IMG/VR virus record: IMGVR_UViG_3300028190_000003
Coordinates: 1-20,334 of that record
Length of the DNA stretch: 20,334 nucleotides
Source: a virus
Strand: one strand, 5' to 3'
This document shows positions 112 to 18,278 of the stretch, piece by piece. The notes below the pieces were generated by a model. The model was not told where the DNA came from and searched no databases. It was given only the letters and a program-made list of their open reading frames with translations. Numbering within the stretch: position 1 is the first letter of the stretch; each line of letters begins with the position of its first letter. The position numbers and the translations under genes were made by a program.

Positions 112-768
112 CTAAACGTTATTACGGTAAGTCCTAAACCTTTTTAAACTCAACGGATGCCCATTATGATGTTGGGCAAGTCCATACGTTGGGTATATGT
201 CTAGTGCCATGGAATATCTCGGAGTCTCGTAAGGGTTCTTCGGGACGGAGTGTTCTAGGTCTGAGGAGAATAGGGCGAGTTGTCCTACTTCGTTACGTTC
301 TTCTCGGAATATGTTGAAGTATGCATCTGATGTATTAGGTTCTGCTTCATATAAGGTCGTATTAAACTCCCCTCTAAGGTATATGTTAGCGTTATGGAAA
401 TGTCCTATATCGGATATTATTTGAGGTCTTATAGCCTCGTGCGTGTGTGTATCGAGACCGCGGTCGTGTCGTAGTATGTTCCCCCAGCATTGAATAACAA
501 TATGAGGTAGATGTCTGAATTCGGGTAGTTTAAATAGTTTGGCGGGTATGTCGAGGAGTTCTATATCAGGATGGGTTAACCAATTACAGACGGTGAACTT
601 AGCAGTGAGTCCATCGTATTCGGTTTCTGGCGAGTCCATGCCCAATACATAATCTTCCCATTCATCCAGTGTATTACAGATGACATCACATTCTCGTTTT
701 GAGAGAAATTCCTTATGGGAAGTATAGTATTTGCTAGAGACAACTGCGTCTGCATTGAATCCCGCCAT
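112..768 (-). CDS. 2OG-Fe(II) oxygenase-like protein (double-stranded beta-helix fold)
   Basis: A 218-residue protein that looks like a 2-oxoglutarate/Fe(II)-dependent dioxygenase. These enzymes oxidise a protein, nucleic acid or small molecule while turning 2-oxoglutarate into succinate. The proximal metal motif is around H108-T-H110-E111, followed by the NIYLRG strand (128-133). The distal half reads GQLALFSS (162-169), then H173, with R184 and S186 in PRYSMALDIYP as the expected 2OG carboxylate contacts. This arrangement matches the phage TIGR02466-like branch, although spacing around the first histidine is unusual. ATG start at 768, six bases after the preceding gene ends. It closes a run of oxygenase genes. 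Substrate unknown. Confidence 0.6.
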   Translation of the reverse strand: MAGFNADAVVSSKYYTSHKEFLSKRECDVICNTLDEWEDYVLGMDSPETEYDGLTAKFTVCNWLTHPDIELLDIPAKLFKLPEFRHLPHIVIQCWGNILRHDRGLDTHTHEAIRPQIISDIGHFHNANIYLRGEFNTTLYEAEPNTSDAYFNIFREERNEVGQLALFSSDLEHSVPKNPYETPRYSMALDIYPTYGLAQHHNGHPLSLKRFRTYRNNV

Positions 769-774
769 GATTCC

Positions 775-1092
775 TTATTCAGTGTCTTTGGTTATACTAG
801 CTTCTATAGTATCGGTTTCTTTTTGCCAGACGATACGACCATCTTGTGCGTGTAGATGATGTTGGAGAAATCCGTGTCTCACTAGATCACCATTCTTATC
901 ACGTAAAGCTGATCCAGCACTACCACGTTGTGGTCGTTTACCTTTCTGTCTGAATTCTTTCTTAGCGTCTGCTCCATACATATGTCCTGAGAAATGTTTT
1001 CCCATGATATTATGTTGTGCGACATGTAAGAATGCAAAGAATATGACAAACCCAAAGAAATAGGTTATTGCCTTTAGTATATTAATTATCAT
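775..1092 (-). CDS. Small protein with one N-terminal membrane helix
   Basis: A 105-residue protein I do not recognise. Residues 2-24 form one strongly hydrophobic segment (IINILKAITYFFGFVIFFAF) with no signal-peptidase site, so it is probably an inner-membrane anchor. The rest is hydrophilic, rich in Lys/Arg and His, with a GKRPQRGSAGSALRDKNGDLVRHG stretch (about 51-74) that could be a flexible basic region. Its ATG overlaps the TGA of the preceding gene (ATGA), which argues for translational coupling and makes this start secure. Function unknown. Confidence 0.7.
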   Translation of the reverse strand: MIINILKAITYFFGFVIFFAFLHVAQHNIMGKHFSGHMYGADAKKEFRQKGKRPQRGSAGSALRDKNGDLVRHGFLQHHLHAQDGRIVWQKETDTIEASITKDTE

Positions 1093-2021
1093 TTGTAACT
1101 TACCTCGGTATGTTTAATTGATGTTTCTACGTTCAACCAAAGAAGACAATATCTATCTAGCCGTGGGTTATCATCGAAAAATACCATACTGGTTTGTTTA
1201 GTAAGACGATACCAATCATGATCATATGCAATATACGGTGCTTCTTCGTCACCACCTACTCCTCTCCATGCATATACATCATTGCTATCATGGAATATTG
1301 GTCTGATCTTCTCTTCAAATTGTTGAATATAGAGTTCATTTTGTGGACGGTTATTAACTGAATAATAACCAGTGTATGCAGCGGGTGTTTTCATCACGAA
1401 AAAATCCTCTGCCTTATATTGATCTTCAATATAGCGTTGTATGTCCTCGCCGTATTCTTTTTGAATACCTGCGGGGTCTTTATTGAAGTTGGTTAATAGA
1501 AACCGTGTGTCTCCTTGAGTGAATCCAATATAATCACCCAAGTATTCATTGGCACTTATGTTTTGCCAGTCCCATGCTTGTTGGATGGTGTATTTGTTCT
1601 CAGATCGTATCTCTTCCGCTTCTGCTACAGTAAACGGATGATTACTATGTTGGGTTGTACCTCGACTCGGCACAGAATCTAATATAATGTTTGCCACCAT
1701 ATCACGTGCATGTGGTTTTCCACCTGTTGCACCCAATACGATAGTCTTATCGCCGTTGTAAATACCTTTTAAACTGAAATCATGAGGGTCTAAGTTATAC
1801 CACACATCATACTCAACCTCGTCTCGGCGGGTTAAAGGGATGATTTTTATGTCTTCGTCTATATCGGTAGGATCATCTGTGTAACATAGGATTTTGGACA
1901 TCACAACATTGTCTTGATTGGTTACAGCATTTTGTCGATGCATAGACAAGTTGAAAGTGTTCACATCTTCACTTGTTATATGATTCTCTTCGGTCTTTAG
2001 TATAATTATGTTCACTGCCAT
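1089..2021 (-). CDS. Divergent glycosyltransferase-like protein (weak match)
   Basis: A 310-residue protein. The N-terminal third resembles the small GT-A-like proteins common in marine T4-like phages. NIIILKTEENHITSEDVN (4-21) would be the first strand and helix, and ILCYTDDPTDIDEDIKIIPL (44-63) matches their typical 'CFTDDP.G...I...PL' element. The position where those proteins carry the metal-binding DxD strand here reads KTIVLGATGG, so the catalytic acid pair appears absent and the protein may not be an active glycosyltransferase. The C-terminal two thirds I cannot assign. The ATG at 2021 has a good ribosome site (GGAG eight bases upstream) and a late-promoter-type octamer 34 bases upstream. 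Confidence 0.5.
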   Translation of the reverse strand: MAVNIIILKTEENHITSEDVNTFNLSMHRQNAVTNQDNVVMSKILCYTDDPTDIDEDIKIIPLTRRDEVEYDVWYNLDPHDFSLKGIYNGDKTIVLGATGGKPHARDMVANIILDSVPSRGTTQHSNHPFTVAEAEEIRSENKYTIQQAWDWQNISANEYLGDYIGFTQGDTRFLLTNFNKDPAGIQKEYGEDIQRYIEDQYKAEDFFVMKTPAAYTGYYSVNNRPQNELYIQQFEEKIRPIFHDSNDVYAWRGVGGDEEAPYIAYDHDWYRLTKQTSMVFFDDNPRLDRYCLLWLNVETSIKHTEVSYK

Positions 2022-2054
2022 TTCATTTTCTCCATTATAAGCAATAATATATTG

Positions 2055-2062
2055 TATTTATG
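2055..2062 (-). promoter_or_regulatory. Late-promoter-type octamer CATAAATA
   Basis: On the minus strand the octamer CATAAATA (consensus of T4-family late promoters: TATAAATA, recognised by gp55 sigma with gp33/gp45) overlaps the stop codon of the upstream oxygenase gene. It lies 33 bases from the ATG at 2021, leaving room for a leader that contains a GGAG ribosome site. The same octamer occurs in front of 18176. Seen in sequence; activity inferred. Confidence 0.5.
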
Positions 2063-2654
2063 CAAAATCTATCCACCCTGTAAAGATCAACTTAGGGTCT
2101 TTTAGTGGTGGATTTCCTCTGTGTAAGTGGGTATATCCCGCAGGCCATAGTAAAAAGTGATTACGAACTGGCTTAACTCGTAATGACTGGTATAGAAATT
2201 CTAATTCACCGCCATCTTCCACGTCATTTAAAAACAATGACCATGCAATTATAGTTTGTCTTGATGTCATGTCCCATGATTGTTCATGATGCCATGCATG
2301 ATATCCACCTGTAGGTTCTGTTTCCTGTATACGTCCACCACTAACAAATACCTGACGGTAGGTATCTCTTATTTGTGGGTAACGCTCAAACAAATCGTCG
2401 AATATATCTCCTTCGATTATATTGATCATATCCTGTGTTTGTGGTATGTAACCATAAGGCATAGCTAGATAACCAAGAGACTCGTCCTTCTTTCTTCTGA
2501 TATCAGAAGTATCAAACTCATTTCTTGGGATTGTTAAACCACGAGCTTTGCATTCTTCCCATGTATTCAACCAATCATCGATCATTTCTTCGGGAAAGAA
2601 ATTCTCATATAATAGTATATGTTCACCTAAGTCGGTGACTTCTCTTTCACTCAT
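2058..2654 (-). CDS. 2OG-Fe(II) oxygenase, prolyl-4-hydroxylase-like
   Basis: A 198-residue dioxygenase-like protein with a full-length double-stranded beta-helix. The Fe(II) facial triad is visible as H122-x-E124 in GYHAWHHEQ and a distal His in PAGYTHLHRGN (H176 or H178). K188 in DPKLIFTGWIDF is the likely 2OG carboxylate contact. The EDGGELEF strand (146-153) is typical of the P4H-like branch found across large phages and algal viruses. The ATG overlaps the SET-domain gene's TGA (ATGA), so the two genes are translationally coupled. The substrate cannot be read from sequence. P4H-like enzymes usually hydroxylate protein side chains, so a virion or host protein is a fair guess but not shown. 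Confidence 0.8.
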   Translation of the reverse strand: MSEREVTDLGEHILLYENFFPEEMIDDWLNTWEECKARGLTIPRNEFDTSDIRRKKDESLGYLAMPYGYIPQTQDMINIIEGDIFDDLFERYPQIRDTYRQVFVSGGRIQETEPTGGYHAWHHEQSWDMTSRQTIIAWSLFLNDVEDGGELEFLYQSLRVKPVRNHFLLWPAGYTHLHRGNPPLKDPKLIFTGWIDFA

Positions 2655-3022
2655 CTGTAACTCACAACTTCTTTTCCTCTAATCCATCTACCGTGACAAG
2701 CACATTTAAATGGACTATTCAACTTATCTTCCGTAGTCTCATAATCAAAAGTAATCTGTTCCCCTATATTAATCTTACGTTTTGCAAGTATTAAGGGTTC
2801 AAGTATACCTTCCTTGACTACAATCTTTGCACTAGGATCACAATGGTGATTTATATAACCACCTTCATAGTGTTCCATGTGTCTCGCTCCTATTTGGATA
2901 GATGTTCTAGTCGGCTCAGGGAAATAATTTCCATTTAACACGAGTATGATATGGCCTGCATCAATTTCTTTTGATGCAAATAGCCCTAGATACCCCTTCT
3001 CAATTTCTTTTATCTCAACCAA
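2651..3022 (-). CDS. SET-domain protein, minimal lysine methyltransferase-like
   Basis: A 123-residue protein that is almost entirely a SET domain, the S-adenosylmethionine-dependent protein-lysine methyltransferase fold. The first motif is GYLGLFASKEIDAG (10-23). The knot-forming NHxC motif is N58-H-H-C61 followed by DPS, and GEQITFDY (87-94) carries the catalytic Tyr94. A reduced post-SET segment follows with F105, C107, C109 and HGRWIRG, which lacks the third zinc Cys of the classic CxCx4C. Its size resembles the chlorovirus histone methyltransferase vSET (about 119 residues). The only usable start is TTG at 3022, because a TAG lies directly upstream in frame. It overlaps the preceding 28-residue gene by eight bases and ends in ATGA with the oxygenase. 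Confidence 0.8.
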   Translation of the reverse strand: MVEIKEIEKGYLGLFASKEIDAGHIILVLNGNYFPEPTRTSIQIGARHMEHYEGGYINHHCDPSAKIVVKEGILEPLILAKRKINIGEQITFDYETTEDKLNSPFKCACHGRWIRGKEVVSYR

Positions 3023-3101
3023 CTAACGCCAACCATTCCTTAATAAAAAATGCAATTAAGAAAAACAGCAACACCATCCAAATTGGATCGACCTTGACCA
3101 T
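3015..3101 (-). CDS. 28-residue single-helix membrane peptide
   Basis: A very short gene that fills an otherwise empty gap. It begins with ATG at 3101, three bases after the stop of the basic repeat protein, and ends with TGA at 3015, overlapping the TTG start of the SET gene. The peptide is MVKVDPIWMVLLFFLIAFFI followed by KEWLALVG: a short charged start, one transmembrane helix (about 7-20) and an amphipathic tail. An AGG lies close upstream of the start. The exact fit between neighbours supports it being real. Role unknown; small phage membrane peptides may act in lysis timing, membrane remodelling or superinfection exclusion. Confidence 0.55.
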   Translation of the reverse strand: MVKVDPIWMVLLFFLIAFFIKEWLALVG

Positions 3102-3104
3102 AAC

Positions 3105-3458
3105 CTAATGAGACCTGTTCGATCCAACTCTAGGTTTTTTATTCGTGTGACCGCTTACCTTCTTCTTCTTCTTTCGAGTCTTAGGTGGTGCAATACCACC
3201 TTTGTAAGCTTCGTTTTTACGTTTTGTAGATTTGTCATCGGCAACGAATTTACCTTTTGCACCTCTTGCTCGTCTCTTACGATTAGCAGGTGTTAATCCA
3301 TCGACATATGCTTCATTGACATCCGTAGTATCGGGATCATCTTTGATGTAATGTCCTTTCTTATTCCTTGCACGTTCTCCCGAACCACCAAGAAAAAAAG
3401 ATCGAAACCAACTACTCATTCCAAATCGTCCACGTCTAGGCTTTTCATTTCTAGCCAT
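3105..3458 (-). CDS. Lys/Arg-rich protein with a duplicated DD..NEAY motif
   Basis: A 117-residue, strongly basic protein. Two copies of a 29-residue unit lie 34 residues apart (29-57 and 63-91). Each has RAR, a G-[HK]-[YF]-[IV] strand, DD, then NEAY and a final Pro. The C-terminus (93-117) is almost pure Lys/Arg/Gly/Ser and looks like a histone tail. Short proteins with this KG.YV.DD..T...NEAY motif recur in marine T4-like phages, function unknown to me. DNA or RNA binding is plausible from charge alone. I chose the ATG at 3458 rather than one 54 bases upstream: it has an AGAGGAAG ribosome site and overlaps the previous stop by only eight bases. Confidence 0.72.
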   Translation of the reverse strand: MARNEKPRRGRFGMSSWFRSFFLGGSGERARNKKGHYIKDDPDTTDVNEAYVDGLTPANRKRRARGAKGKFVADDKSTKRKNEAYKGGIAPPKTRKKKKKVSGHTNKKPRVGSNRSH

Positions 3459-3681
3459 TATCTTCTTCCTCTTTATTACTAAACACAACTCCACCTCGTC
3501 TGACGAGTTCATTTCTGACCTTCGCTCTCAACTTCGGTTTCGTCCTCTCATTATTAAATGCTTCAATAAGATCACTCTTACTTTTGCACTTCATATAATT
3601 ATATTCCCAACGAGTTATAGTACCACCAGTAGCAGTCCTATTCCAATTTTTTACTGTCGGGCCAAATTTAATTGGGGGCAT
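3451..3681 (-). CDS. Conserved small T4-like phage protein (MPPIKFGPT family)
   Basis: A 76-residue basic protein beginning MPPIKFGPTVKNWNRT with a conserved-looking KCKSKSDLIEAFNNE..KPKLRAKVRNELVRRG block (32-63). I recognise this arrangement as a conserved hypothetical protein of marine T4-like phages (MPPIKF at the start, NELVRRG towards the end), with no function known to me. The C-terminus is acidic (NKEEEDNG). A strong ribosome site (AAAGGAAGAG) lies just before the ATG at 3681, and a TATAAATG octamer lies a few bases further upstream. Confidence 0.75.
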   Translation of the reverse strand: MPPIKFGPTVKNWNRTATGGTITRWEYNYMKCKSKSDLIEAFNNERTKPKLRAKVRNELVRRGGVVFSNKEEEDNG

Positions 3682-3693
3682 CTCTTCCTTTGT

Positions 3694-3876
3694 TCATTTA
3701 TATGTATCTAAATTTTCCATCGTCCATTCGTGACTGCAATATGCATCACAAAATACTGTTACTTTCCCACAGTCAGGGCCTAAGACCAAACCATGTTCTA
3801 TGTGGTAGTATTTAATGCTTTCAGCAATGAGTGGTTTGAAACACAAACCACACTCATAGTCAGCCACATTCGGCAT
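3694..3876 (-). CDS. Small Cys-rich zinc-finger-like protein (TRASH/MYM-like pattern)
   Basis: A 60-residue protein with Cys at 9, 12, 36, 43 and 47 and His at 49. The layout CGLCFKPL ... VFCDAYCSHEW resembles treble-clef zinc fingers of the TRASH/MYM kind, where a CxxC knuckle is followed about 30 residues later by FCxxxCxxxW. The family match is by pattern only. The ATG at 3876 has an AAGAGATAG ribosome site and overlaps the end of the 57-residue gene upstream. A role as metal-dependent protein or nucleic-acid adaptor is possible but unproven. Confidence 0.65.
   Translation of the reverse strand: MPNVADYECGLCFKPLIAESIKYYHIEHGLVLGPDCGKVTVFCDAYCSHEWTMENLDTYK
3695..3702 (-). promoter_or_regulatory. 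Late-promoter-like octamer TATAAATG
   Basis: This minus-strand octamer differs from the T4-family late consensus TATAAATA at one position. It overlaps the stop codon of the zinc-finger gene and sits 13 bases from the ATG at 3681, with the ribosome site AAAGGAAGAG between. It would start a transcript covering the 76-residue gene, the basic repeat protein and the SET gene. Weak evidence alone. Confidence 0.3.
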
Positions 3877-4033
3877 TAAATCTATCTCTTAGTTCTACCT
3901 CTTTAGTAACCTCTTCAATGACTTCTTCAAGTATCTGCTTGGGTTTATCCATCAGTATTGCTTGGTGATCATTCTTCGGTTCTAATAGATTTCGAGCAAC
4001 TAACAGTTTATTTAATATTATCACTGTATCCAT
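3860..4033 (-). CDS. 57-residue hypothetical protein
   Basis: A short mainly helical protein, hydrophobic at the start (MDTVIILNKLLVARNLLE) and charged with many Glu/Lys later (QILEEVIEEVTKEVELRDRF), ending AECG. No family recognised. A longer frame opens at 4150 but would run 92 bases into the preceding oxygenase gene. The ATG at 4033 has a good ribosome site (GGAAGAG five bases upstream) and starts 25 bases after that gene's stop, so I prefer it. It overlaps the zinc-finger gene by 17 bases. Confidence 0.55.
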   Translation of the reverse strand: MDTVIILNKLLVARNLLEPKNDHQAILMDKPKQILEEVIEEVTKEVELRDRFNAECG

Positions 4034-4058
4034 CTTCTCTTCCGTTATCTGAGTTAAC

Positions 4059-4751
4059 TTAATCGTCAAATCCCTCCATCGCTTCATCGTGATATGGTAG
4101 TGGGTCTTGTTTAGACCCCTGTTCCTTACCAGTCCATAATAGCAAAGCATGTCTTTCTCCAGTATACAATGGTTCTACACTGTGCCATCTGAGGGTTGAA
4201 TTATTAAACGCAACCATTGTTCCTCTTCGGGTCATAATAATATGACCATCTACAATAAGTCTTCCACCAGTAAACTCTTCATCTAACATGAAGATAGCAG
4301 TTGCTCTATCATTCTTATCTGCTTCATCACGATGCCATGGAAATAGGTTATCCTGACTGTAATGTATCACTTGCATAAAGTTGACTCTTTCATAGTCTGT
4401 TCCTTCTGGCATGTAATCAGCGACAACTGCGTATATTTCATCATGTGCTGGTGTGTCACGGAAGAATGTTCCTATGTGCATGTTGTTATGAAAATATCGG
4501 TGGTTTCTTCCAATCCACTCTTCATCTACTGGTAAAAATTGATTCTCATTCTCACTGTCAGGCGGATGATAAACTTCTATCTCTTGCAGCTTCAAATACT
4601 CAGCATGAATCAATTCACAACGATCAGGTGTCAACACCCTATCCTTTATGATGAGTTGATCTAAGTTTCTCCACTCTTGTTGGTCTTCACCTTCAGCTCC
4701 TCGTGGGGTCTTGTAAGGCACCATGACCTTTCTTCGTTTTCTTTCTACCAT
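4059..4751 (-). CDS. 2OG-Fe(II) oxygenase, P4H/AlkB-like beta-helix
   Basis: A 230-residue dioxygenase-like protein. H140-R-D142 in FPWHRDEADK is the HxD iron motif and H190 in STLRWHSVEP is the distal ligand. R200 in YTGERHALLLW is the likely 2OG-binding residue, and GGRLIV (162-167) is the usual beta-hairpin strand. All catalytic positions are present, so it should be active. Substrate unknown; DNA-repair (AlkB-like) and protein-hydroxylase roles both remain possible. The start at 4751 is the ATG in ATGGTAG that overlaps the preceding stop. An alternative ATG at 4724 sits behind a GAAAGG sequence. The frame is also open up to 4865 but that would overlap the upstream gene heavily. Confidence 0.78.
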   Translation of the reverse strand: MVERKRRKVMVPYKTPRGAEGEDQQEWRNLDQLIIKDRVLTPDRCELIHAEYLKLQEIEVYHPPDSENENQFLPVDEEWIGRNHRYFHNNMHIGTFFRDTPAHDEIYAVVADYMPEGTDYERVNFMQVIHYSQDNLFPWHRDEADKNDRATAIFMLDEEFTGGRLIVDGHIIMTRRGTMVAFNNSTLRWHSVEPLYTGERHALLLWTGKEQGSKQDPLPYHDEAMEGFDD

Positions 4752-4984
4752 GGTAACATTGACATCCCTATTTGTCTGAGAATAAACTCTATGATGACTA
4801 CAAATATAACACCACCAATTATCTGATATGTCCAATACTGCCAACCAGTAAGTGACCTTGACCATTGTGCAAGTTTACTGTTATGTGCTTTATCATATGC
4901 ACCAGTTTTATTGCCTATCTTCTCAGCCCAGTAATTAGGGTCTACAGAATTCTTGATTGCTTTTAAAATTTTACCTAGCACCAC
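4745..4984 (-). CDS. Small protein with C-terminal membrane helix (probable GTG start)
   Basis: About 79 residues: a basic amphipathic start (LGKILKAIKNSVD), a polar middle, then one membrane helix near the end (YQIIGGVIFVVIIEFILRQ), giving a tail-anchored layout. The open frame reaches an ATG at 5044, but that would lie 74 bases inside the upstream oxygenase gene. Tandem GTG codons at 4984 and 4981 follow an AGGGTAGGAAC ribosome site, so GTG is the better start. Function unknown; holin-like or membrane adaptor roles cannot be tested from sequence. Confidence 0.55.
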   Translation of the reverse strand: MVLGKILKAIKNSVDPNYWAEKIGNKTGAYDKAHNSKLAQWSRSLTGWQYWTYQIIGGVIFVVIIEFILRQIGMSMLPW

Positions 4985-5675
4985 CGTTCCTACCCTTTGA
5001 TGGATGAAAAAACAGCACTTGACTGAATCTCCAGTTGTCTCCACTATATTTTGTGTAATCGTCTATATACGCACCGTGTAATCTGTTGCCGGGCACAATA
5101 ATTCCTCTATTAAATTTATGTGGGATGAGTTGTTGTAAATCCATATCATCTTCTACAGGATATAACAAACTCTGATGTTCTCTGTTCTCTAACCATGCAC
5201 CCTCATATATGGCTGTTCCACCATTTTCAATCGTATCAAGATATATGATCAAATTCAATGTGGACATTTCATCAGGTGTTCCTAGTGGACTGTCAATATG
5301 TGGGTAATGTTGTAATTTATTATCAAAGATGTTAATCGTTTGAAAACAGTTGACCTCATATAAAGCATTCCATGTATATTCATGTCTCCACCAGTGGTTT
5401 CGACAACAATTTAATATTCGTTGCATGTCATTATCATATCTTCTTGTAGGATGTCCTACTTTGTCAACAACCCGACAGTCATTATAATCAACTCCATTAG
5501 GACTATCTCTTTCGCTGTTGTATTTCCAATAGGGATATGGTCTATTGCGTAGAGCCTCATTTATCTCTTCGGGATTCTCATAGAAGTTGTCTATGATTAG
5601 AATACCATCATCAAAGGTTAAATCCCAATGCTCTGCTTGTTTGAAATGCTCATCTAATGAAAATGCTTTTCTCAT
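4971..5675 (-). CDS. 2OG-Fe(II) oxygenase-like (DUF6445-type pattern)
   Basis: A 234-residue protein with a clear facial triad. H126-I-D128 in HYPHIDSPLGTPDE is followed by strand NLIIYLDTIENGGTAIYEG (141-159). The distal H200 is in VPGNRLHGAYID, and R216 in NWRFSQVLFFHP is the 2OG contact. The long loop between the GG hairpin and the distal His, and the FFHP ending, recall the phage and bacterial DUF6445 group; I am fairly but not fully sure of that subfamily. The ATG overlaps the TGA of the neighbouring TIGR02466-like oxygenase (ATGA), so the two are made as a coupled pair from different subfamilies. Confidence 0.78.
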   Translation of the reverse strand: MRKAFSLDEHFKQAEHWDLTFDDGILIIDNFYENPEEINEALRNRPYPYWKYNSERDSPNGVDYNDCRVVDKVGHPTRRYDNDMQRILNCCRNHWWRHEYTWNALYEVNCFQTINIFDNKLQHYPHIDSPLGTPDEMSTLNLIIYLDTIENGGTAIYEGAWLENREHQSLLYPVEDDMDLQQLIPHKFNRGIIVPGNRLHGAYIDDYTKYSGDNWRFSQVLFFHPSKGRNGGAR

Positions 5676-6448
5676 TTGAATTCTTGACTCCTAAGAAACT
5701 CATAACTCAGCTGATCACCTGACTCAGTATCATTTAATATTTCGTTGTGCATTAAATTAAAGGATAATGCTATTCGTTCGTATTCTTCATCACCACTAAA
5801 ATCACCATGAACACCGTGTAACATATAAGAGGGCCACATACAAAATTGACCTGTTTTAGGATGAATGATTAAATCAGATTGTGTTCCTGTAGTTCCTGTT
5901 GAGGTAGTTCCCCACATATCATTGAAATTATCCATGTCTACGTCTCTTGCTTTGTGCTGTGCAATAGTAGTATAATTGGGATTAAGGAATTTAATGGGTT
6001 GTGCGTTGTCATCTGCTTTGACGTAATATGTTCCTGACAACATTGAGTTAACATGATTATGAAAATCGTGAAAATCATCATGACTGTAAACACTGATCCA
6101 AGCAAACAAATGAATATCATGTCGTGAGATATAACTAACGTCATGATACCATTGTTGAGCGATGAACTTGATATAGGTGTCTTTTATGACATTAGAAAAT
6201 GTGTTATACCAGTTATAATCCAATAACTGGAGTCTAGCGTCATTGTCAAAATAGGTGGTGTAATTTCGTCTTGGTTCATCGTCACGAGACTCAACCGTCT
6301 CGATCATTTGACGACAATTATGTGCTATTAACTCGTGTGGTAAATCCAATTCTCCACGTAAGAATGGAGTTGGAAAGATATAATCTACTACGTAGTTTTC
6401 AACTGGCTGAAATAACTGTTCGTCATTCCGTATTTTCGCTGCCTTCAT
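5672..6448 (-). CDS. 2OG-Fe(II) oxygenase, TIGR02466-like
   Basis: A 258-residue protein with the layout of the phage 2OG-Fe(II) family TIGR02466. It starts with a variable N-terminal domain, FPTPFLRGEL (25-34). The metal segment FHDFHNHVNSMLSGTYYVK follows (126-144, H130 and H132 with further His nearby), then a loop with a GTTSTGTTGTQ low-complexity run (180-190). The distal half is GQFCMWPSYMLHGVHGDFSG (H211, H214), with R225 and S229 in ERIALSFNL. Length and order are normal. A GAGGAATAAGA ribosome site supports the ATG at 6448, which lies inside the end of the lipoprotein gene. Substrate unknown. Confidence 0.82.
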   Translation of the reverse strand: MKAAKIRNDEQLFQPVENYVVDYIFPTPFLRGELDLPHELIAHNCRQMIETVESRDDEPRRNYTTYFDNDARLQLLDYNWYNTFSNVIKDTYIKFIAQQWYHDVSYISRHDIHLFAWISVYSHDDFHDFHNHVNSMLSGTYYVKADDNAQPIKFLNPNYTTIAQHKARDVDMDNFNDMWGTTSTGTTGTQSDLIIHPKTGQFCMWPSYMLHGVHGDFSGDEEYERIALSFNLMHNEILNDTESGDQLSYEFLRSQEFK

Positions 6449-6992
6449 TCTTATTCCTCGGCCATAACCCTATGGAAGGTCGACCTTCATTCTCTAATTT
6501 CACTCCAACACCAACTGCTGGTTCTCCTTTAATTGTCACGTTTCTATAATATATTACGACTTCGCCCAATTCCCTGATATATCGTCTCAATTCTTGCATA
6601 TTAGCAGACATTGCTTCATAGTCACCTACTGTTGTGGCAACAAAAACAACTGCTCCACCATTTTGTCTTTCCATTTCATCTAGGAATTGATCTAAGTATG
6701 TATAGTCATCTGGCCAATCAGGATTTTCTTTTCCTAATGTGCAAGACTTATCTTCATTCCGTGGTCTTTTACCGTCCGCGTCCTTAACACATGGATTGGT
6801 AATCTTAGCTTCTGATACCACATACCATTTTGGTTCAATCAAATTGATTGATCTAGGTAAGTTGGGTTGCATGATCGCAATCTCTATCGGTTTAGATGAG
6901 ACTTCAATCTTTTTAGAACCCATTATACCACAGGCACTAAGACTAAAGACTAAACTAATTATTATTAAGTGCTTCAAGCTCTTTGCTATCAT
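6423..6992 (-). CDS. Lipoprotein, probable o-spanin (Rz1-like) partner
   Basis: A 189-residue lipoprotein. The N-terminus has a Lys/His-tipped hydrophobic stretch and a lipobox LSAC ending at Cys21, so the mature protein should be lipid-anchored. The body holds an IEVSSKPIEIAIMQPNLPRSI block, a PKWYVVSEAKITNPC segment (54-68), and a helix near 128-146 (YEAMSANMQELRRYIRELG) that could form a coiled coil. I recognise this as conserved in marine T4-like phages. It overlaps by 38 bases the i-spanin-like gene upstream, the classic Rz/Rz1 arrangement, so a role in outer-membrane disruption at lysis is likely. It is longer than typical Rz1 proteins, so other envelope roles remain open. Confidence 0.68.
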   Translation of the reverse strand: MIAKSLKHLIIISLVFSLSACGIMGSKKIEVSSKPIEIAIMQPNLPRSINLIEPKWYVVSEAKITNPCVKDADGKRPRNEDKSCTLGKENPDWPDDYTYLDQFLDEMERQNGGAVVFVATTVGDYEAMSANMQELRRYIRELGEVVIYYRNVTIKGEPAVGVGVKLENEGRPSIGLWPRNKNEGSENTE

Positions 6993-7326
6993 TTTCTATA
7001 CTCTCGAATACTTGCTGTGTGCCTTTGTTAACTCGTGTGGTAATGAGGCCCGGCTTTGCTTGAGCAAGTTTATCTAAATTGTGTCGTTTAAAAATGTCAA
7101 GATATGAATTCATTTCTTGCTCAATTTGAGCATTTCTTGACTGCATGGTTAATAGAGATTGGCCCTGTCTTTCATATGACTCTCTAATTGCAGTCATAGC
7201 CTCTTCTTGCTGTTGTATTGCAAGCTCAAGCTTAACGTTGTTCTCTTTTAATGTTTGGTTTTCAGTATACAACCAATAACTAGCCCCGCCTAATATGACA
7301 AGTGCTATTAATAAAAACTGTTGCAT
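6955..7326 (-). CDS. Probable i-spanin (Rz-like): N-terminal membrane anchor plus coiled coil
   Basis: A 123-residue protein with one N-terminal membrane helix (FLLIALVILGGASYWLYT, about 4-21). A long heptad-rich helix follows (NQTLKENNVKLELAIQQQEEA and onwards, to about 80), then a periplasmic tail with HNLDKLAQAKPGLITTRVNKG (86-106). Membrane anchor, coiled coil and a directly overlapping lipoprotein gene are the hallmarks of a two-component spanin, which joins inner and outer membrane during lysis of Gram-negative hosts. The start forms TAATG with the preceding stop. The HNLDKLA..KPG.IT.R.NKGT segment is conserved in marine T4-like relatives by recollection. Confidence 0.68.
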   Translation of the reverse strand: MQQFLLIALVILGGASYWLYTENQTLKENNVKLELAIQQQEEAMTAIRESYERQGQSLLTMQSRNAQIEQEMNSYLDIFKRHNLDKLAQAKPGLITTRVNKGTQQVFESIENDSKELEALNNN

Positions 7327-7571
7327 TATTCGTCCTCTATTATATAATGAAGTCCTGTTGCTGATCTATGTTCTATTACTTTACCGTGTTGGTCTATAAA
7401 TTTTAAGTGCTTCTCCGCAGCTTTAATAATCTTTTTGGCCAAGTATTCTTTATCGTCAGAATCACCCCAAACTCTATTGAATGAAACCGTGACTTTATAG
7501 CGTGTTCTGAATAGTCCTTTGAACCAAACCCAAACACGTTTTAACCACTCCTTCACCTTTGATGACTTCAT
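7326..7571 (-). CDS. Conserved small T4-like phage protein (YKVTVSFNRVWGDSDD)
   Basis: An 81-residue protein. The N-terminus is basic and aromatic (KVKEWLKRVWVWFKGLFRTR) and could lie along a membrane. The core YKVTVSFNRVWGDSDDKEY (25-43) and a later FIDQHGKVIEHRSATGLHY block are conserved in marine T4-like phages as I remember them, function unknown. It is the first gene of the lysis cluster. Its ATG at 7571 has no Shine-Dalgarno sequence; instead a CCTAAATA octamer ends five bases upstream, which would give a leaderless transcript. Confidence 0.72.
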   Translation of the reverse strand: MKSSKVKEWLKRVWVWFKGLFRTRYKVTVSFNRVWGDSDDKEYLAKKIIKAAEKHLKFIDQHGKVIEHRSATGLHYIIEDE

Positions 7572-7576
7572 AAAGG

Positions 7577-7584
7577 TATTTAGG
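7577..7584 (-). promoter_or_regulatory. Late-promoter-type octamer CCTAAATA, five bases before a start codon
   Basis: In the 20-base gap before the lysis cluster the minus strand reads CCTAAATA, then CCTTT, then ATG. T4-family late transcripts start about six bases after the octamer, so the mRNA would begin at the ATG itself. The spacing is identical to that at 18182-18189. There is no ribosome site in the gap. Confidence 0.45.
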
Positions 7585-7591
7585 AGTTTTT

Positions 7592-8104
7592 TTAATGGAG
7601 TGCCACTGGGTTTCTCAAAGCTTTGAGAGCATTAATAGTATCTTCTGCACTAACGTGTAGAATCCCTATTCCACCAGCTTCTTCCCATGCGTCGACATTT
7701 GCCTTAACATCATCAATCAGGACACTTCCGCTCTTAGCGAACATTGCCTTTTGTCTTCCGTTAAATGTGCAAGTGACTACAATAGATGGATCAACATATT
7801 GTCCGATCCATTTGACCTTATCATAAACCACTAATTCTCTGTTTACGGAACCAGCAGCAGATAAGATTTCCCACGGTAAGTGGGTATGTTTGATATAAGC
7901 GATGAGTTCATACATATCCACCATCGGTGGTAAATTTCTGAACAATCTCTTATTGGTTAATTCGGGTTTTCTTTTGTCGTATTCTGAATGACCTTTAGCA
8001 TCATTCTTTAAAGGCTGTCCTATCATTTTACTACAACCCACGACGAAGTCTGCTAGGACTCCATCCATATCAACAAATATTCTTTTTACTTCACTTTTAC
8101 TCAT
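7592..8104 (-). CDS. HAD-superfamily 5'(3')-deoxyribonucleotidase-like protein
   Basis: A 170-residue HAD phosphatase. Motif I is D12-M-D14-G-V in IFVDMDGVLADF, motif II is the Ser in ILSAAGS (80-86), motif III a Lys around 119-124, and motif IV D131-D132 in VLIDDVKANVDAW. This matches the small 5'(3')-deoxyribonucleotidase-like family, which removes phosphate from deoxynucleoside monophosphates. In a phage it could tune nucleotide pools together with NrdA/NrdB, though NAD- or RNA-end roles are possible for some HAD relatives. The ATG at 8104 is preceded closely by a sigma70-type promoter with a very short leader. Confidence 0.8.
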   Translation of the reverse strand: MSKSEVKRIFVDMDGVLADFVVGCSKMIGQPLKNDAKGHSEYDKRKPELTNKRLFRNLPPMVDMYELIAYIKHTHLPWEILSAAGSVNRELVVYDKVKWIGQYVDPSIVVTCTFNGRQKAMFAKSGSVLIDDVKANVDAWEEAGGIGILHVSAEDTINALKALRNPVALH

Positions 8105-8115
8105 TTTACATACCT

Positions 8116-8145
8116 ATTATACTACTATACAGGCCGTGCTGTCAA
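8116..8145 (-). promoter_or_regulatory. Consensus sigma70-type promoter (TTGACA-18-TATAAT)
   Basis: The minus strand in the 43-base gap between the SprT-like gene and the HAD gene carries TTGACA (8145-8140), an 18-base spacer and TATAAT (8121-8116). Both hexamers match the bacterial consensus at every position. Transcription should start near 8109, only about five bases before the ATG at 8104, so the transcript would be nearly leaderless. It would be read by unmodified host polymerase, so it is probably an early promoter for the HAD, small-protein and spanin genes. Confidence 0.72.
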
Positions 8146-8147
8146 GG

Positions 8148-8579
8148 CTAAAGCCAGTATTTGTTGTATATTTTATCTTCTAGATTATAGGCCTCTTTTT
8201 CCCATGGTTGTTTACCATAAACGGTATTAGAGTATGATGGATCATCTTTCCACCACTGTTTTCGAGACAATTCACCCTTTATTAGCTGCTTTGTATGAAC
8301 CAATTCGTGTGCTAAATTACGCATCATTTCATCCAGTGTGAATGGCACTCCATATGCTTTTCTTGGTAGTTCGATTTCACTGCCTGATCTATCACCCCAA
8401 CATAACCCATAGAATTCGTTTTCACATACATTTACAATTTGAATATCAACAGTGACATTTCGCCTAAGTCTAGGCAACATATGCTGTATTGTTTCTACTA
8501 TGTAATCTTTGATTCGTGTCTTTTGTGCAATACGACCACGAATACTTACATGAATATTAGAACCGTTCCTCGTCCTCAT
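8148..8579 (-). CDS. SprT-like zinc metallopeptidase
   Basis: A 143-residue protein with the HExxH zinc motif H91-E-L-V-H95 in MRNLAHELVHTKQLIKG. PWEKEAYNLED (125-135) supplies a likely third ligand or the conserved SprT-type Trp/Glu element. The strand FYGLCWGDRSGSEIELPRKAYG (56-77) matches the SprT fold lead-in. SprT/Spartan-family proteases cut DNA-linked proteins in eukaryotes; phage versions are not characterised to my knowledge and might process host or virion proteins. The start overlaps the 52-residue zinc ribbon gene by 23 bases. The two may be functional partners, as many SprT proteins carry a C-terminal zinc ribbon that this one lacks. Confidence 0.75.
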   Translation of the reverse strand: MRTRNGSNIHVSIRGRIAQKTRIKDYIVETIQHMLPRLRRNVTVDIQIVNVCENEFYGLCWGDRSGSEIELPRKAYGVPFTLDEMMRNLAHELVHTKQLIKGELSRKQWWKDDPSYSNTVYGKQPWEKEAYNLEDKIYNKYWL

Positions 8580-8715
8580 CCATCACCTCAAGTAAATCTT
8601 CATCAACCTCATCACCACAAAAAGGACAATGATTTATCAAATAATAATTTGTATCCATGTCATGTTCTACTTCTGATTCGCTTCTACAACCAGCACAAAA
8701 TACTTTAACTCTCAT
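8557..8715 (-). CDS. 52-residue zinc-ribbon protein
   Basis: A short gene between the 89-residue protein and the SprT-like gene. It encodes a 52-residue protein with two CxxC knuckles: C7-A-G-C10 (VFCAGCRSES) and C30-P-F-C33 (HCPFCGDE), then an acidic tail (DEVDEDLLEVMDEDEERF). This is a textbook four-Cys zinc ribbon. The ATG at 8715 has a perfect ribosome site (AAAAGGAGATAG). It overlaps both neighbours (11 and 23 bases), which is normal for this genome and supports expression. A nucleic-acid- or protein-binding role is likely; it may serve the adjacent peptidase. Confidence 0.75.
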   Translation of the reverse strand: MRVKVFCAGCRSESEVEHDMDTNYYLINHCPFCGDEVDEDLLEVMDEDEERF

Positions 8716-8974
8716 CTATCTCCTTTTCACCTAACACCTTCACCCATAAATTATCAAAAGCTTTCCTCTTTCCATTCCAAGTAGCATATGGTAATTCATG
8801 AGGAGCTCCTGTAACCTTATTATACGGTGTATCAGCAACTGTAAAGTCTAATCCTTGTTCGTATATTCTAACTTCGTTATAGACAACATCGATCTGTTTG
8901 AATAGGTGCTTCCATCGGTCACAGTGAACGTCTTGATCCTGTGGTTGAGGTAAATATAATCTAAACTTATTCAT
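8705..8974 (-). CDS. Hypothetical small phage protein (89 residues)
   Basis: No recognised domain, but NKFRLYLPQPQDQDVHCDRWKH and RIYEQGLDFTVAD, then TGAPHELPYATWNGKRKAFDNLW, look like a compact mixed alpha/beta fold of the sort kept as conserved hypotheticals in marine T4-like phages. I chose ATG 8974 because it forms a perfect ATGA overlap with the glutaredoxin stop. A longer form from ATG 9019 (15 residues more, GGAG two bases upstream) would overlap glutaredoxin by 49 bases. Confidence 0.62.
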   Translation of the reverse strand: MNKFRLYLPQPQDQDVHCDRWKHLFKQIDVVYNEVRIYEQGLDFTVADTPYNKVTGAPHELPYATWNGKRKAFDNLWVKVLGEKEIDES

Positions 8975-9225
8975 AGGTCTTGGTGATTCCACGGCTGTTT
9001 CATATACTTCGAGTGCCATTTCTCCAACTGGTCATATCCGCCTATTGATTGACCGTTTATTCTTATTTGTGGGAACGTTCGAGCCTTGGGGAATTCAAAT
9101 AATATATCATCCCGAGTAAAATCTTCGTCCAACTGTTTATATATGTAATCGTAGCCATATTGTTTGCACAATAATTTTGCTTGAGTGCAGTAAGGACATT
9201 GTGGTTTACCCCATATTTCTATCAT
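8971..9225 (-). CDS. nrdC: Glutaredoxin (NrdC-like)
   Basis: An 84-residue dithiol glutaredoxin. C10-P-Y-C13 is the redox pair, T50-F-P52 the cis-proline loop and G62-G63-Y-D the glutathione-binding end, all normal in position for class I glutaredoxins. Its usual job is to return electrons to NrdA after each turnover, and it sits downstream of nrdA and nrdB here. Its ATG overlaps the stop of the QueC-like gene. The symbol follows T4 usage; the T4 protein is a thioredoxin/glutaredoxin hybrid, so treat it as functional shorthand. Confidence 0.85.
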   Translation of the reverse strand: MIEIWGKPQCPYCTQAKLLCKQYGYDYIYKQLDEDFTRDDILFEFPKARTFPQIRINGQSIGGYDQLEKWHSKYMKQPWNHQDL

Positions 9226-9845
9226 GTTGGTTTAAGACCTCCTCTCATTTTTTTATACTCACCACATTTGTAACAAACTCCACATGGAGATTTCCCATCA
9301 AATGCTAATGGATGGCCACAACTCTGTGCCCATGGTTTAACTTCATCAGGAATCAGTTCCCATTGTTGTCGTTTCGTCATTCCACTAAGTGGTGGATACA
9401 GTTTCTGGCCATGGGGTCTCTCGTTCATCATGGCACAATAATGTTCAAAGACTAAGAAGAACTCCCATGCTCTTGGATGATAATGATAATCTCCACCAAC
9501 ACCGTATTCATGATCACCACTATTTACACCCCAAAAGAAGTTCTTAACATCAGGGTATCTTGTTGCAAGTTGACACGCTGCAAGAACCCAATGTTTTGAA
9601 GAATGAAACCCATCTTCTCTTTCACCAAAGTTCTGATCATACGTTGATTGTTTATGTATTAATAATGGAACTTTATAGTGGTCAGTAATCTGTGGGATAT
9701 TGGCATTTACTTCCCTTGAAGCACAAGCAGGATGTTCGAATACAGAATGAACGGCAGCTACAATTTCGTGATCAGATTCCGTTAACCAATGAAGTAAAGC
9801 GACACTCTCGATGCCACCCGAAAACATAACAAAACATTTTTCCAT
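9222..9845 (-). CDS. queC: QueC-like 7-cyano-7-deazaguanine (preQ0) synthase
   Basis: A 207-residue PP-loop ATPase. The nucleotide loop reads F8-S-G-G-I-E-S14, with Glu where most QueC proteins have Asp (SGGxDS). GVNSGDHEYG follows (about 105-114), and a C-terminal zinc site is formed by C176, C188, C191 and C194 (SCGHP...SPCGVCYKCGEYKKM). QueC converts 7-carboxy-7-deazaguanine to preQ0 using ATP and ammonia. Phages use preQ0 or derivatives either to modify their DNA or to supply tRNA queuosine. No other pathway gene (FolE, QueD, QueE, DpdA) is visible in this window. The start follows the previous stop directly (TAG-ATG) without a ribosome site. Confidence 0.82.
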   Translation of the reverse strand: MEKCFVMFSGGIESVALLHWLTESDHEIVAAVHSVFEHPACASREVNANIPQITDHYKVPLLIHKQSTYDQNFGEREDGFHSSKHWVLAACQLATRYPDVKNFFWGVNSGDHEYGVGGDYHYHPRAWEFFLVFEHYCAMMNERPHGQKLYPPLSGMTKRQQWELIPDEVKPWAQSCGHPLAFDGKSPCGVCYKCGEYKKMRGGLKPT

Positions 9846-10031
9846 CTATAGTTTCAAATAGATTAACAGCAATAATAGAATAACCAAGAAGAGTTCAATC
9901 CCTAAGATCAGATGATAAAACACCCATCTAGTCTTATACATATTGAGCTCAATCTTTCTTTCATCTTCAATGTCATCAAATCTATCAACAACATCAATCC
10001 ATTTCTTATATATTTCTTTCCACTTACTCAT
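9846..10031 (-). CDS. 61-residue protein with C-terminal membrane helix
   Basis: A charged N-terminal helix (SKWKEIYKKWIDVVDRFDDIEDERKIELN) is followed by a single C-terminal membrane span (VFYHLILGIELFLVILLLLLIYL, 37-59). This tail-anchored shape is seen in some phage accessory membrane proteins. I start it at ATG 10031, because that forms ATGA with the stop of the 28-residue gene upstream; the in-frame ATG 12 bases earlier is less likely. Function unknown. Confidence 0.62.
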   Translation of the reverse strand: MSKWKEIYKKWIDVVDRFDDIEDERKIELNMYKTRWVFYHLILGIELFLVILLLLLIYLKL

Positions 10032-10114
10032 AGGTTTATCCACACTACTCCAAATGCTGATACTAGAAATAGTATTGAGCTGAGTATGAATATTATTTTA
10101 AGTGCCTTGTTCAT
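10028..10114 (-). CDS. 28-residue single-helix membrane peptide after nrdB
   Basis: A tiny gene between nrdB and the 61-residue membrane protein. Its ATG at 10114 overlaps the nrdB TGA (ATGA) and its own TGA overlaps the next ATG (ATGA), so it locks perfectly into a translationally coupled chain. The peptide, MNKALKIIFILSSILFLVSA followed by FGVVWINL, is a short basic tip plus one membrane helix. It has no ribosome site of its own. The next gene also encodes a single-helix membrane protein, so the two could assemble together. Role unknown. Confidence 0.65.
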   Translation of the reverse strand: MNKALKIIFILSSILFLVSAFGVVWINL

Positions 10115-11208
10115 AATTTGAAGTTCTTGAACGTGTCTGACTTAACATCTTGTTTGATTCCACCAATTAAATATGATTCTATCTCTGTCTCTTGTGGTGC
10201 ATTCTGTAATCTTCTACTAGAAAACCAATGTTGAGTCCACGGTAATGGGTTATTTGTTGAGGGTCTATCGAAAATAGGTTTGAATCCTATTGCACGAAGC
10301 CTCCTGTTGCAAATGAATTCGATATATTGACCCAATAATGCTGTGGACAACCCAATCATCGATCCTTCTTTAAATAGATACTCTGCCCATTCCTTTTCGG
10401 TCTCTGCACCTTCCTCGTATAACTCATAAACTTCCTTTCTGCAAGCTTTCATGACCTTGTTCATGACCCTATTCTTTTCATTCTTTTGATAATTTTTTAT
10501 TATGTGCTGAGTGATTGCCAAATGTTGACTCTCGTCTCTCGCTATCAGCGAGATAATCTTTGCACTTCCTTCCATGAGTTTCAGCTCCCCAAAGGCGAAT
10601 GAACATGCGAAAGAAACAAAGAATCTAAGACCTTCTAAGATGTTGACACTAATCAATGCAAGATATAGTGCTTTGTATAACTCTTCTTCATCATACTTGA
10701 GTCCTAATAGTTTCCTTCTTCCTAGTGTAATGAACTCATCATACTTTTTAGTGACCATTTCTGCTCTCTTGATGATTGCTGGTTCAGTTAATATGGTGTC
10801 AAAGACATCACTTGGGTTAGCATAAACATTCTTTATGATATGAGTGTATGACCTTGAGTGAATTGATTCCATGAAGTCCCAAGCGATAATAGAAGACTCA
10901 AGCTCAGGGAGGCTCACAAACGGTAAGAATGCTATGGATGGAGCCCTGCCCTGAACTGAGTCTAATAGGGTTTGATACCTCAAATTGGAAGTGAAGATGT
11001 GTTTTTGCGCGTCATTCAATGTTTGAAAGTCTGCACGATCTTTTTGTAAAGATACTTCTTCTGGCCTCCAAAAGAATCCTAATTGTTTTTGTGTTAATTT
11101 ATCAAACACAGGATACTTAAAGGTATCAAATCGTTGTGTATTTAATGGTTCACCAAAGAACATCTTCTCTTTAGTGAAGTCTACATTTTTCTTGTTAAAA
11201 ACTGTCAT
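10111..11208 (-). CDS. nrdB: Ribonucleotide reductase class Ia small subunit (NrdB)
   Basis: A 365-residue R2 protein that houses the di-iron site and tyrosyl radical. Iron ligands are visible: D83 (LLDSVQG), E114 and H117 in MESIHSRSYTHII with the radical Y121, the LEGLRFFVSFACSFAFGEL segment, and ARDESQH for the last Glu/His pair. The C-terminal tail TFKNFKL resembles the E. coli tail that docks into NrdA. It makes dNTPs for phage replication together with NrdA and glutaredoxin. The start is ATG 11208, which forms TGATG with the preceding gene; a TTG one codon upstream is not needed. A GGGGAT sequence upstream may serve as ribosome site. Confidence 0.95.
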   Translation of the reverse strand: MTVFNKKNVDFTKEKMFFGEPLNTQRFDTFKYPVFDKLTQKQLGFFWRPEEVSLQKDRADFQTLNDAQKHIFTSNLRYQTLLDSVQGRAPSIAFLPFVSLPELESSIIAWDFMESIHSRSYTHIIKNVYANPSDVFDTILTEPAIIKRAEMVTKKYDEFITLGRRKLLGLKYDEEELYKALYLALISVNILEGLRFFVSFACSFAFGELKLMEGSAKIISLIARDESQHLAITQHIIKNYQKNEKNRVMNKVMKACRKEVYELYEEGAETEKEWAEYLFKEGSMIGLSTALLGQYIEFICNRRLRAIGFKPIFDRPSTNNPLPWTQHWFSSRRLQNAPQETEIESYLIGGIKQDVKSDTFKNFKL

Positions 11209-12419
11209 CAATCCCCACCCTTCTTTGTTCTCGGATATTGATTTTCGGGTCGTACATAGTCAGGTGAAATTTCTGATGGCTTAAGTTTTGGCTGTTGATA
11301 TGTATTCGATTCTATTTTTTTATCAAATGAGTCTTGAGCTTGTTCATCATACACTAAATGATCATAATTATTAGTGAATCGGGATAGTTTACCACCACAA
11401 ACTCCTTGACTTCTGACAGAATGCCAGATATTCATGAACTGATCAAACAATTCTCCATGTTTGCTTCCTTCTTTATCAGGTGCATATCGATTACGTCTGC
11501 CATCAAATTCTAATGGTAATGTTTCACCCCATTTTCCTCTTTCAGCATGGATGACGGACTCGTCATGCAACATCGCATCTTTTCGGCTACCACCAAGTTT
11601 ATGTGCAACTGGTATTGCATAATCAAAAGCTTGTCCAAAGTTATCAGCTATTGTTTCTGGCAATTTCCATAACTCTGAATCTCTATTGTAGAAATGTAGA
11701 AACATCTGATAACTATAGTCTCCTAACAACTTGTCTCTCCAGTGTGCTACATTTGGGCCTAGATATAATAATACATCGCCCGGCTCCAACGACACTTGGA
11801 TCATTCCTTTCTTAATTCTTTGTCTGTTTGGGATATCTTGAGTCACAGGGCCAATGTTATCCTGATCTTTTGTATCTACCCAATTCTTTGAGTTGTCAAC
11901 CCAAATCTTCCATGGAGTATTATCATCCGTTCTATAATCTAAACAAATTGTTGCACTGATCTCACATGATGGTCTATCCGTATGTGCTTTAAGGTATGCA
12001 CCCCTCTCATATTTTCTTGTGTATGAGTAGGTTTCTCTGAGATTTATATCAATCGTGTCTCGTAATGCATTTCTTAACCAACGGTGAAGTGAGACGCCCA
12101 TGGGCGTGCAATAACCACCATGAGATTTAAATAGGGTTTCTTCGGGAGAGTTTTGAATAATATCTTCTTCGAGTTGAAGAATATCTTCTTGATATGGAGC
12201 AGCTTCAATAGTTTTCCATGTATCTAAAGTCAGTCTGACAACCTCTTTAGGAATGTATTGTTTAAGAACAACATACCCCTCTTTCATCAGTTGCCATGTG
12301 TCGGGATTAGTAGCCCCCTTTAATATTACATCAGGAACCCCTTGTTGAGGTTGTGTCTGTCGTATTCCAGTAACTTGGTCTTTATATTTTATCGTCTTAT
12401 CTTCAAATCTCACAGGCAT
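11208..12419 (-). CDS. 2OG-Fe(II) oxygenase-like protein between nrdA and nrdB
   Basis: A 403-residue protein. A beta-helix core with H146-T-D148 in YLKAHTDRPSCEISATICLDY, a GDVLLYLGPNVAHWRD strand (214-229, distal H226) and YSYQMFLHFYN marks an Fe(II)/2OG oxygenase. The N-terminal 100 and C-terminal 150 residues are extra regions I cannot assign. NrdA ends inside its first codons (17-base overlap) and nrdB starts at its stop (TGATG), so it is firmly embedded in the ribonucleotide reductase operon. ATG 12419 is chosen because a GAGGAAG ribosome site precedes it; ATG 12443 would add eight residues. Substrate unknown. Confidence 0.78.
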   Translation of the reverse strand: MPVRFEDKTIKYKDQVTGIRQTQPQQGVPDVILKGATNPDTWQLMKEGYVVLKQYIPKEVVRLTLDTWKTIEAAPYQEDILQLEEDIIQNSPEETLFKSHGGYCTPMGVSLHRWLRNALRDTIDINLRETYSYTRKYERGAYLKAHTDRPSCEISATICLDYRTDDNTPWKIWVDNSKNWVDTKDQDNIGPVTQDIPNRQRIKKGMIQVSLEPGDVLLYLGPNVAHWRDKLLGDYSYQMFLHFYNRDSELWKLPETIADNFGQAFDYAIPVAHKLGGSRKDAMLHDESVIHAERGKWGETLPLEFDGRRNRYAPDKEGSKHGELFDQFMNIWHSVRSQGVCGGKLSRFTNNYDHLVYDEQAQDSFDKKIESNTYQQPKLKPSEISPDYVRPENQYPRTKKGGD

Positions 12420-18201: not shown

Positions 18202-18278
18202 TGGAGCTGGTGGTCAGATTCGAACTGACGACCTGTGGTTTACAAAACCACTGCTCTGACCAACTGAGCTACACCAGC
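18202..18278 (-). tRNA. tRNA-Thr (anticodon UGU), CCA encoded
   Basis: A complete cloverleaf of 77 bases on the minus strand. The acceptor stem pairs GCTGGTG with CACCAGC; the D arm is GCTC-loop-GAGC. The anticodon stem GTGGT/ACCAC holds loop TTTGTAA with anticodon TGT, reading ACA. The T arm is GTCAG-TTCGAAT-CTGAC, with an encoded CCA after discriminator T. The preceding protein gene ends immediately before the tRNA (no spacer), so it is cotranscribed and needs processing. It probably supports translation of ACA codons in this AT-rich phage genome. Confidence 0.95.

Follow-up and report, generated by a model that had tools for sequence, protein, structure and literature searches.

An oxygenase-type gene of the phrog_2954 family lies between nrdA and nrdB in an uncultured lineage of marine T4-like phages with six such genes

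We analyzed the entire IMG/VR virus record IMGVR_UViG_3300028190_000003 (20,334 bases, hereafter the window), which carries nearly all of its genes on the minus strand, including six oxygenase-type genes that we named ox1 to ox6 in window order. The data make it probable that the window represents an uncultured marine T4-like (Kyanoviridae-like) lineage with six oxygenase genes, in which ox6, as part of the ribonucleotide reductase operon, would encode a hydroxylase that depends on Fe(II) and acts on a protein or amino-acid side chain. An initial annotation had described six Fe(II)/2-oxoglutarate (2OG) oxygenase-like genes; these open reading frames were recovered at the same positions and belong to oxygenase folds or profile families, but the accompanying reading of their active-site motifs was only partly right. 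It had overlooked both the location of the sixth gene, which in nearly all relatives is flanked by nrdA and nrdB, and the wrong label, ferrochelatase, of the family to which this gene belongs. What is new in the present work is the placement of ox6 in the order nrdA-ox6-nrdB, together with a revised label for phrog_2954; a search of the literature available to us found no description of an oxygenase gene in this place.

The ox6 gene (11208..12419, minus strand, with an alternative start at 12443) overlaps both of its neighbours. Upstream is nrdA (12403..14697, minus strand), which encodes the large subunit, with an ATP cone, of a class I ribonucleotide reductase, and downstream is nrdB (10111..11208, minus strand), identified by its profile match as encoding the class Ia small subunit; the NrdB protein passes the cut-off of the NCBIfam equivalog PRK09101 (472 vs 346 bits). 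The best and probable start of ox6 is the ATG at 12419 behind AGGTGAGG, which gives an overlap of 17 nucleotides with the end of nrdA (12403..12419, minus strand), and the ox6 stop codon shares one base with the nrdB ATG in a TGATG junction (11206..11210, minus strand). All ox6-anchored contigs that extend over the two flanking genes had the order nrdA-ox6-nrdB. Because this set of contigs is biased by its query, we also searched with NrdB alone and sampled the best 80 of 225 NrdB-matching viral contigs, some of which are near-copies of each other. Both subunits were encoded in 78 of these 80 loci, and in 76 of the 78 ox6 was located between them, either alone (74 loci) or together with an extra ox2-like gene (two loci). 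In the other two, nrdA overlaps nrdB directly. Even in the divergent subclades L140-L157 and L158-L167, where the ox5-ox4-ox3 run was not seen near nrdB, ox6 still occupied the slot, and in L158-L167 it did so with a spanin block upstream. Extra oxygenases were present in the slot in L005, L006, L009, L017 and L018. In a phylogenetic tree all nrd-linked ox6 sequences formed a single group with a support of 100/100, and their distances tracked those of NrdB (Mantel r 0.77, with 0 of 999 permutations as high). The nrd-linked form of ox6 thus has a single origin. It is also under purifying selection, with a dN/dS ratio (non-synonymous to synonymous substitution rates), computed on core columns, of 0.15 for the ox6 core as compared to 0.09 for nrdA and 0.07 for nrdB.

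The cultured Kyanoviridae share the order primase-nrdA-...-nrdB with the window, where a T4 gp61-like primase gene (14697..15710, minus strand) lies upstream of nrdA, and the NrdB proteins in this comparison are up to 66% identical to that of the window (HTVC008M). They differ in the content of the slot, which is empty in the cyanophages ACG-2014d, ACG-2014f and P-SSM3, with nrdA overlapping nrdB or lying directly before it, and which is filled by other small genes in HTVC008M and Mosig, one of these genes in pelagiphages being annotated as PurM. A second case of an oxygenase adjoining ribonucleotide reductase is provided by cyanophage ACG-2014d, where an ox2-like gene (L042:18499-19062), labelled 'hypothetical' in the annotation, starts 80 bases after nrdB.

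The ox6 protein, whose residues are counted here from the alternative start at 12443, gave no Pfam match and was assigned to phrog_2954 by profile (5e-36). Since a search of PDB sequences with the ox6 profile found nothing, its fold rests on prediction. An AlphaFold2 model based on 29 sequences had a core of about residues 44-260 for which the predicted local distance difference test score (pLDDT) was mostly >90. The top Foldseek match of this model was the prolyl-4-hydroxylase (P4H) in complex with EF-Tu (E 8e-9), and VIA-align gave Z-scores of 15.3 to the 2OG-Fe(II) oxygenase 6n1f, about 15 to BesD/HalA and 14.7 to PHD2; the predicted fold is a jelly-roll with 2OG oxygenases as best matches. 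The residues H154, D156, H234 and R236 were invariant in all nrd-linked ox6 relatives that cover them, and were shared with bacterial homologues from several phyla, with the homologues in phage oxygenase arrays and with phrog_2954, from which ox6 differs by its longer C-terminal part, its single copy per contig and its fixed place in the nrd operon. With PHD2/P4H and BesD/HalA it has the fold (Z about 15) and the H-x-D...H motif in common, whereas identity to these proteins is about 10-12% and the window ox6 has no Arg or Lys at positions H+9 to +12 after the distal His. The window protein has a Tyr there (Tyr245, H+11), in a position that is Arg or Lys in 28 of 78 relatives, and R236 (H+2) is always present. 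Some 2OG oxygenases place the Arg/Lys elsewhere than H+9 to +12, and in ox6 R236 is probably the residue that anchors 2OG. We have classed ox6 by its fold and iron site only.

The conserved iron ligands, the fold and the overlapping genes lead us to propose that ox6 is a hydroxylase that depends on Fe(II) and is produced jointly with ribonucleotide reductase. In this proposal H154, D156 and H234 of a prolyl-hydroxylase/BesD fold would hold Fe(II), R236 would be the likely anchor of 2OG, and coupled translation would produce ox6 along with NrdA and NrdB; a protein or amino-acid side chain would most likely be hydroxylated in the DNA-synthesis phase. We favour such a target because the folds nearest to ox6 are hydroxylases and halogenases that act on proteins or amino acids, because two contigs (L016:10016-11767 and L025:10001-11740) encode ox6 joined at its C-terminal end to a PRMT-like class I methyltransferase (PRMT3, E 4e-9), and because a SET-domain (lysine methyltransferase-like) gene (2651..3022, minus strand; Pfam 6e-10) overlaps ox2 by 4 nucleotides. 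Free-standing relatives of the PRMT-like methyltransferase occur in 17 other viral contigs, and none was found in cultured phage records.

Several points weigh against this proposal. The activity of ox6 is predicted from sequence and model, the C-terminal part of the window protein (about 145 residues) was modelled only partly, and this protein has no methyltransferase domain. Beyond the distal His, ox6 has no Arg/Lys at the usual place, so that the use of 2OG is no more than presumed. The hints at a protein target are weak, since the methyltransferase is normally a free gene, fused in just two related contigs, and few relatives have the SET gene. Moreover, a place beside nrdA and nrdB could equally mean a nucleotide substrate. 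An alternative, which we judge to be unlikely but a serious one, is that ox6, and perhaps other ox proteins, oxidizes nucleotides, deoxynucleotides or phage DNA, and for this reason travels with nrdA, nrdB, glutaredoxin and a 5'(3')-deoxyribonucleotidase-like (NT5C) gene. This would agree with the conserved place between the two subunit genes, with the block that is shared with the glutaredoxin and NT5C-like genes, and with the presence of other small genes, including the one annotated as PurM, in the pelagiphage slot. However, the nearest folds are those of protein or amino-acid hydroxylases and halogenases, not of nucleotide or TET/JBP enzymes, ox6 gave no Tet_JBP match, and operon partners do not define a substrate. 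The hydroxylation of a protein or amino-acid side chain may be extended to a scheme in which ox6 works with phage methyltransferases, such as the PRMT-like domain of the fused relatives and the SET protein of the window, and a eukaryote-like combination of hydroxylation and methylation would retune NrdA/NrdB or the host translation machinery; we regard this extension as quite unlikely.

The remaining genes, ox1 to ox5, are located in one conserved block behind a spanin gene, and the block also contains the SET methyltransferase gene; the lineage thus appears to keep six Fe(II)/2OG-oxygenase-type genes, five of them in this block. Family assignments for ox1 to ox5 were made with the curated Pfam cut-offs, and conservation of the sites was read from alignments of 16 to 29 sequences for ox4, ox5 and ox6 and from nine rows for ox2. 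The P4H-like ox2 (2058..2654, minus strand; phrog_61) matches PF13640 (1e-9) and keeps H122-x-E124, H176 and K188 in its nine aligned rows. The P4H/PKHD-like ox3 (4059..4751, minus strand) matches the same family (2e-11), and its residues H140-x-D142, H190 and R200 hold across relatives, with the first iron-binding His lost in 3 of 15 (L013:17464-18189, L024:17923-18513 and L027:18437-19057); these three are possible pseudoenzymes. By profile and by the conserved H-x-D/E, distal His and Arg/Lys, ox2 and ox3 are assigned to the Fe(II)/2OG oxygenase superfamily. The ox4 protein (4971..5675, minus strand) belongs to DUF6445/PF20043 (2e-7; 31.5 bits vs a gathering score of 24), with H126-x-D128, H200 and R216 invariant in 16 aligned sequences. 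Structure prediction, which yielded the confident jelly-roll model for ox6, gave a weak model for ox4 (pLDDT 61), whose structure matches, mostly 2OG oxygenases with Z up to 9.5, are no more than suggestive of this fold. The other two genes fall into PF13759, the phrog_81-type ox1 (112..768, minus strand) at 4e-6 and barely above the gathering score (27.5 vs 27 bits), and the TIGR02466-like ox5 (5672..6448, minus strand) at 3e-18 (66.5 bits). Both have H-x-H in place of the H-x-D/E iron motif and were classed as PF13759 members only, with H108-x-H110, H173 and R184 in ox1 and H130-x-H132, H211 and R225, invariant in 17 aligned sequences, in ox5. The solved PF13759-like chains 2rg4 and 3bvc match the ox5 profile (4e-14) and show the same H-x-H stretch; ox5 differs in falling slightly short of the threshold for TIGR02466 (59 vs 62.5 bits). 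The pattern of H-x-D/E, distal His and Arg/Lys that had been ascribed to all six genes therefore holds for ox2, ox3 and ox4, but not for ox1 and ox5, which have H-x-H, or for ox6, which lacks the usual Arg/Lys. Motif counting as such was rejected as evidence because, when the sequences of these proteins were shuffled, 33-69% of the copies still contained the HxD/E...H...R/K pattern.

The loss of the iron His in three ox3 relatives, the H-x-H of ox1 and ox5, and the PHROG label 'minor coat protein' carried by the ox4-like phrog_1644 could be taken to mean that several ox genes encode pseudoenzymes which serve as structural or binding proteins. We consider this quite unlikely, as the iron ligands of ox4, ox5 and ox6 are invariant across relatives and the H-x-H stretch is also found in the solved proteins 2rg4 and 3bvc. 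Proteins of the oxygenase type are likewise found under the labels 'minor coat protein' (phrog_1644) and 'DNA endonuclease' (phrog_2297), e.g. L171:1404-2168 and L045:26549-27034. A match to phrog_1644 was obtained for ox4, and the HTVC008M 'endonuclease V' at 26549 matches PF13640 (1e-7).

Profile-profile comparison with hhalign linked only 2 of the 15 pairs of ox proteins, ox2-ox3 and ox1-ox5, so that the six genes represent four subfamilies. Simple tandem duplication was rejected on these grounds, in agreement with the initial annotation, which had seen a collection from several subfamilies. We found no link by which what one of the enzymes makes would pass to the next, and the oxidation cascade suggested in the initial annotation is not upheld. 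TET/JBP-type DNA oxidation was rejected as a candidate, with just one weak sub-threshold match, for ox3. A collection of six oxygenases is not unusual, such sets being known from cultured marine T4-like phages, as had been noted. Sullivan et al. 2010 (PMC3037559) reported cyanophages with as many as five 2OG-FeII genes. The Pelagibacter phage HTVC008M has five oxygenase-type genes in a row and several elsewhere, and comparable runs are present in the Pelagibacter phage Mosig and the cyanophages S-SM1 and S-RIM44. Among the relatives of the window, L006, L009 and L017 each carry six of these genes over a stretch of 12.6 to 20.8 kb, and on a 140-kb relative phrog_61 or phrog_81 is matched at no fewer than seven places, in addition to one phrog_2954 gene. 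Like the window, the cultured arrays have oxygenase-type genes in runs, with a phrog_2954 member among them, but there this member lies near neck genes or elsewhere and not between nrdA and nrdB. Furthermore, tblastn searches of 50,697 phage records gave no match for ox4 or ox5; S-RIM44 carries a distant phrog_1644-type relative of ox4. None of eight long relatives was found to carry a PhyH-type oxygenase, a type that is core in cyanophages.

Among the other genes of the window, an Rz-like spanin gene (phrog_812; 6423..6992, minus strand) is conserved directly upstream of ox5, and the NT5C-like gene (7592..8104, minus strand), with a Pfam score below cut-off, is kept in the same block. The window also encodes a protein of 310 amino acids from an unknown family (1089-2021), which recurs in five relatives close to ox1 and ox2, at that end of the block. 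The glutaredoxin gene (8971..9225, minus strand) is conserved downstream of nrdB, and between the two lies a gene for a PP-loop ATPase-like protein (PAPS reductase/QueC-like; 9222-9845, below cut-offs), which was also observed in this interval in several relatives (L013, L112, L114, L122). The SET gene, whose closest solved chains are MLL/KMT2A, had no match among the 50,697 phage records; it occurs in four IMG/VR loci and in L011, where it is located between nrdB and glutaredoxin. One tRNA-Thr (TGT) gene is present at 18202-18278.

A cyanobacterial host is not indicated by the sequence data, because psbA was not found on the eight long relatives, the 140-kb contig included, and because the closest cultured NrdB proteins are those of the Pelagibacter phages HTVC008M (66%) and Mosig (62%). 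A close relative, L046, is in a bin named Synechococcus, which is weak evidence on the host. These data bear on the idea of Sullivan et al. 2010 (PMC3037559), of which the initial annotation had raised the part on 2OG consumption, that such genes chiefly drain 2OG, and thereby affect cyanobacterial nitrogen signalling, or produce succinate in the host. Such phages do carry many 2OG-using enzymes (PMC3037559), but four divergent subfamilies, purifying selection and fixed positions suggest specific substrates, and without psbA in these long relatives the cyanobacterial NtcA logic is not indicated, which makes this explanation very improbable.

The label of phrog_2954 (T4-GC 615) is 'ferrochelatase', an annotation that is found in HTVC008M, S-PM2 and others and in many RefSeq records, although some individual records of the family already read 2OG oxygenase. 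Two ecological studies of marine phages (PMC9599517 and PMC11561400) treat the family as ferrochelatase. That ox6 is a ferrochelatase or other haem-related enzyme is nonetheless hardly credible, given the absence of any match to the Pfam/NCBIfam ferrochelatase models (PF00762) at E up to 1 for ox6 and three other phrog_2954 proteins, the confident jelly-roll model with 2OG oxygenases as its PDB matches, and the invariant H-x-D...H. The family counted as ferrochelatase in both studies is thus indicated to have an oxygenase fold, and the published partnership of 'ferrochelatase plus 2OG oxygenase' would then be a run of oxygenases and not a haem pathway. That one oxygenase family is firmly established in the ribonucleotide reductase operon of a phage lineage for which no cultured members are known makes the diffuse observation that marine phages carry many oxygenases testable.

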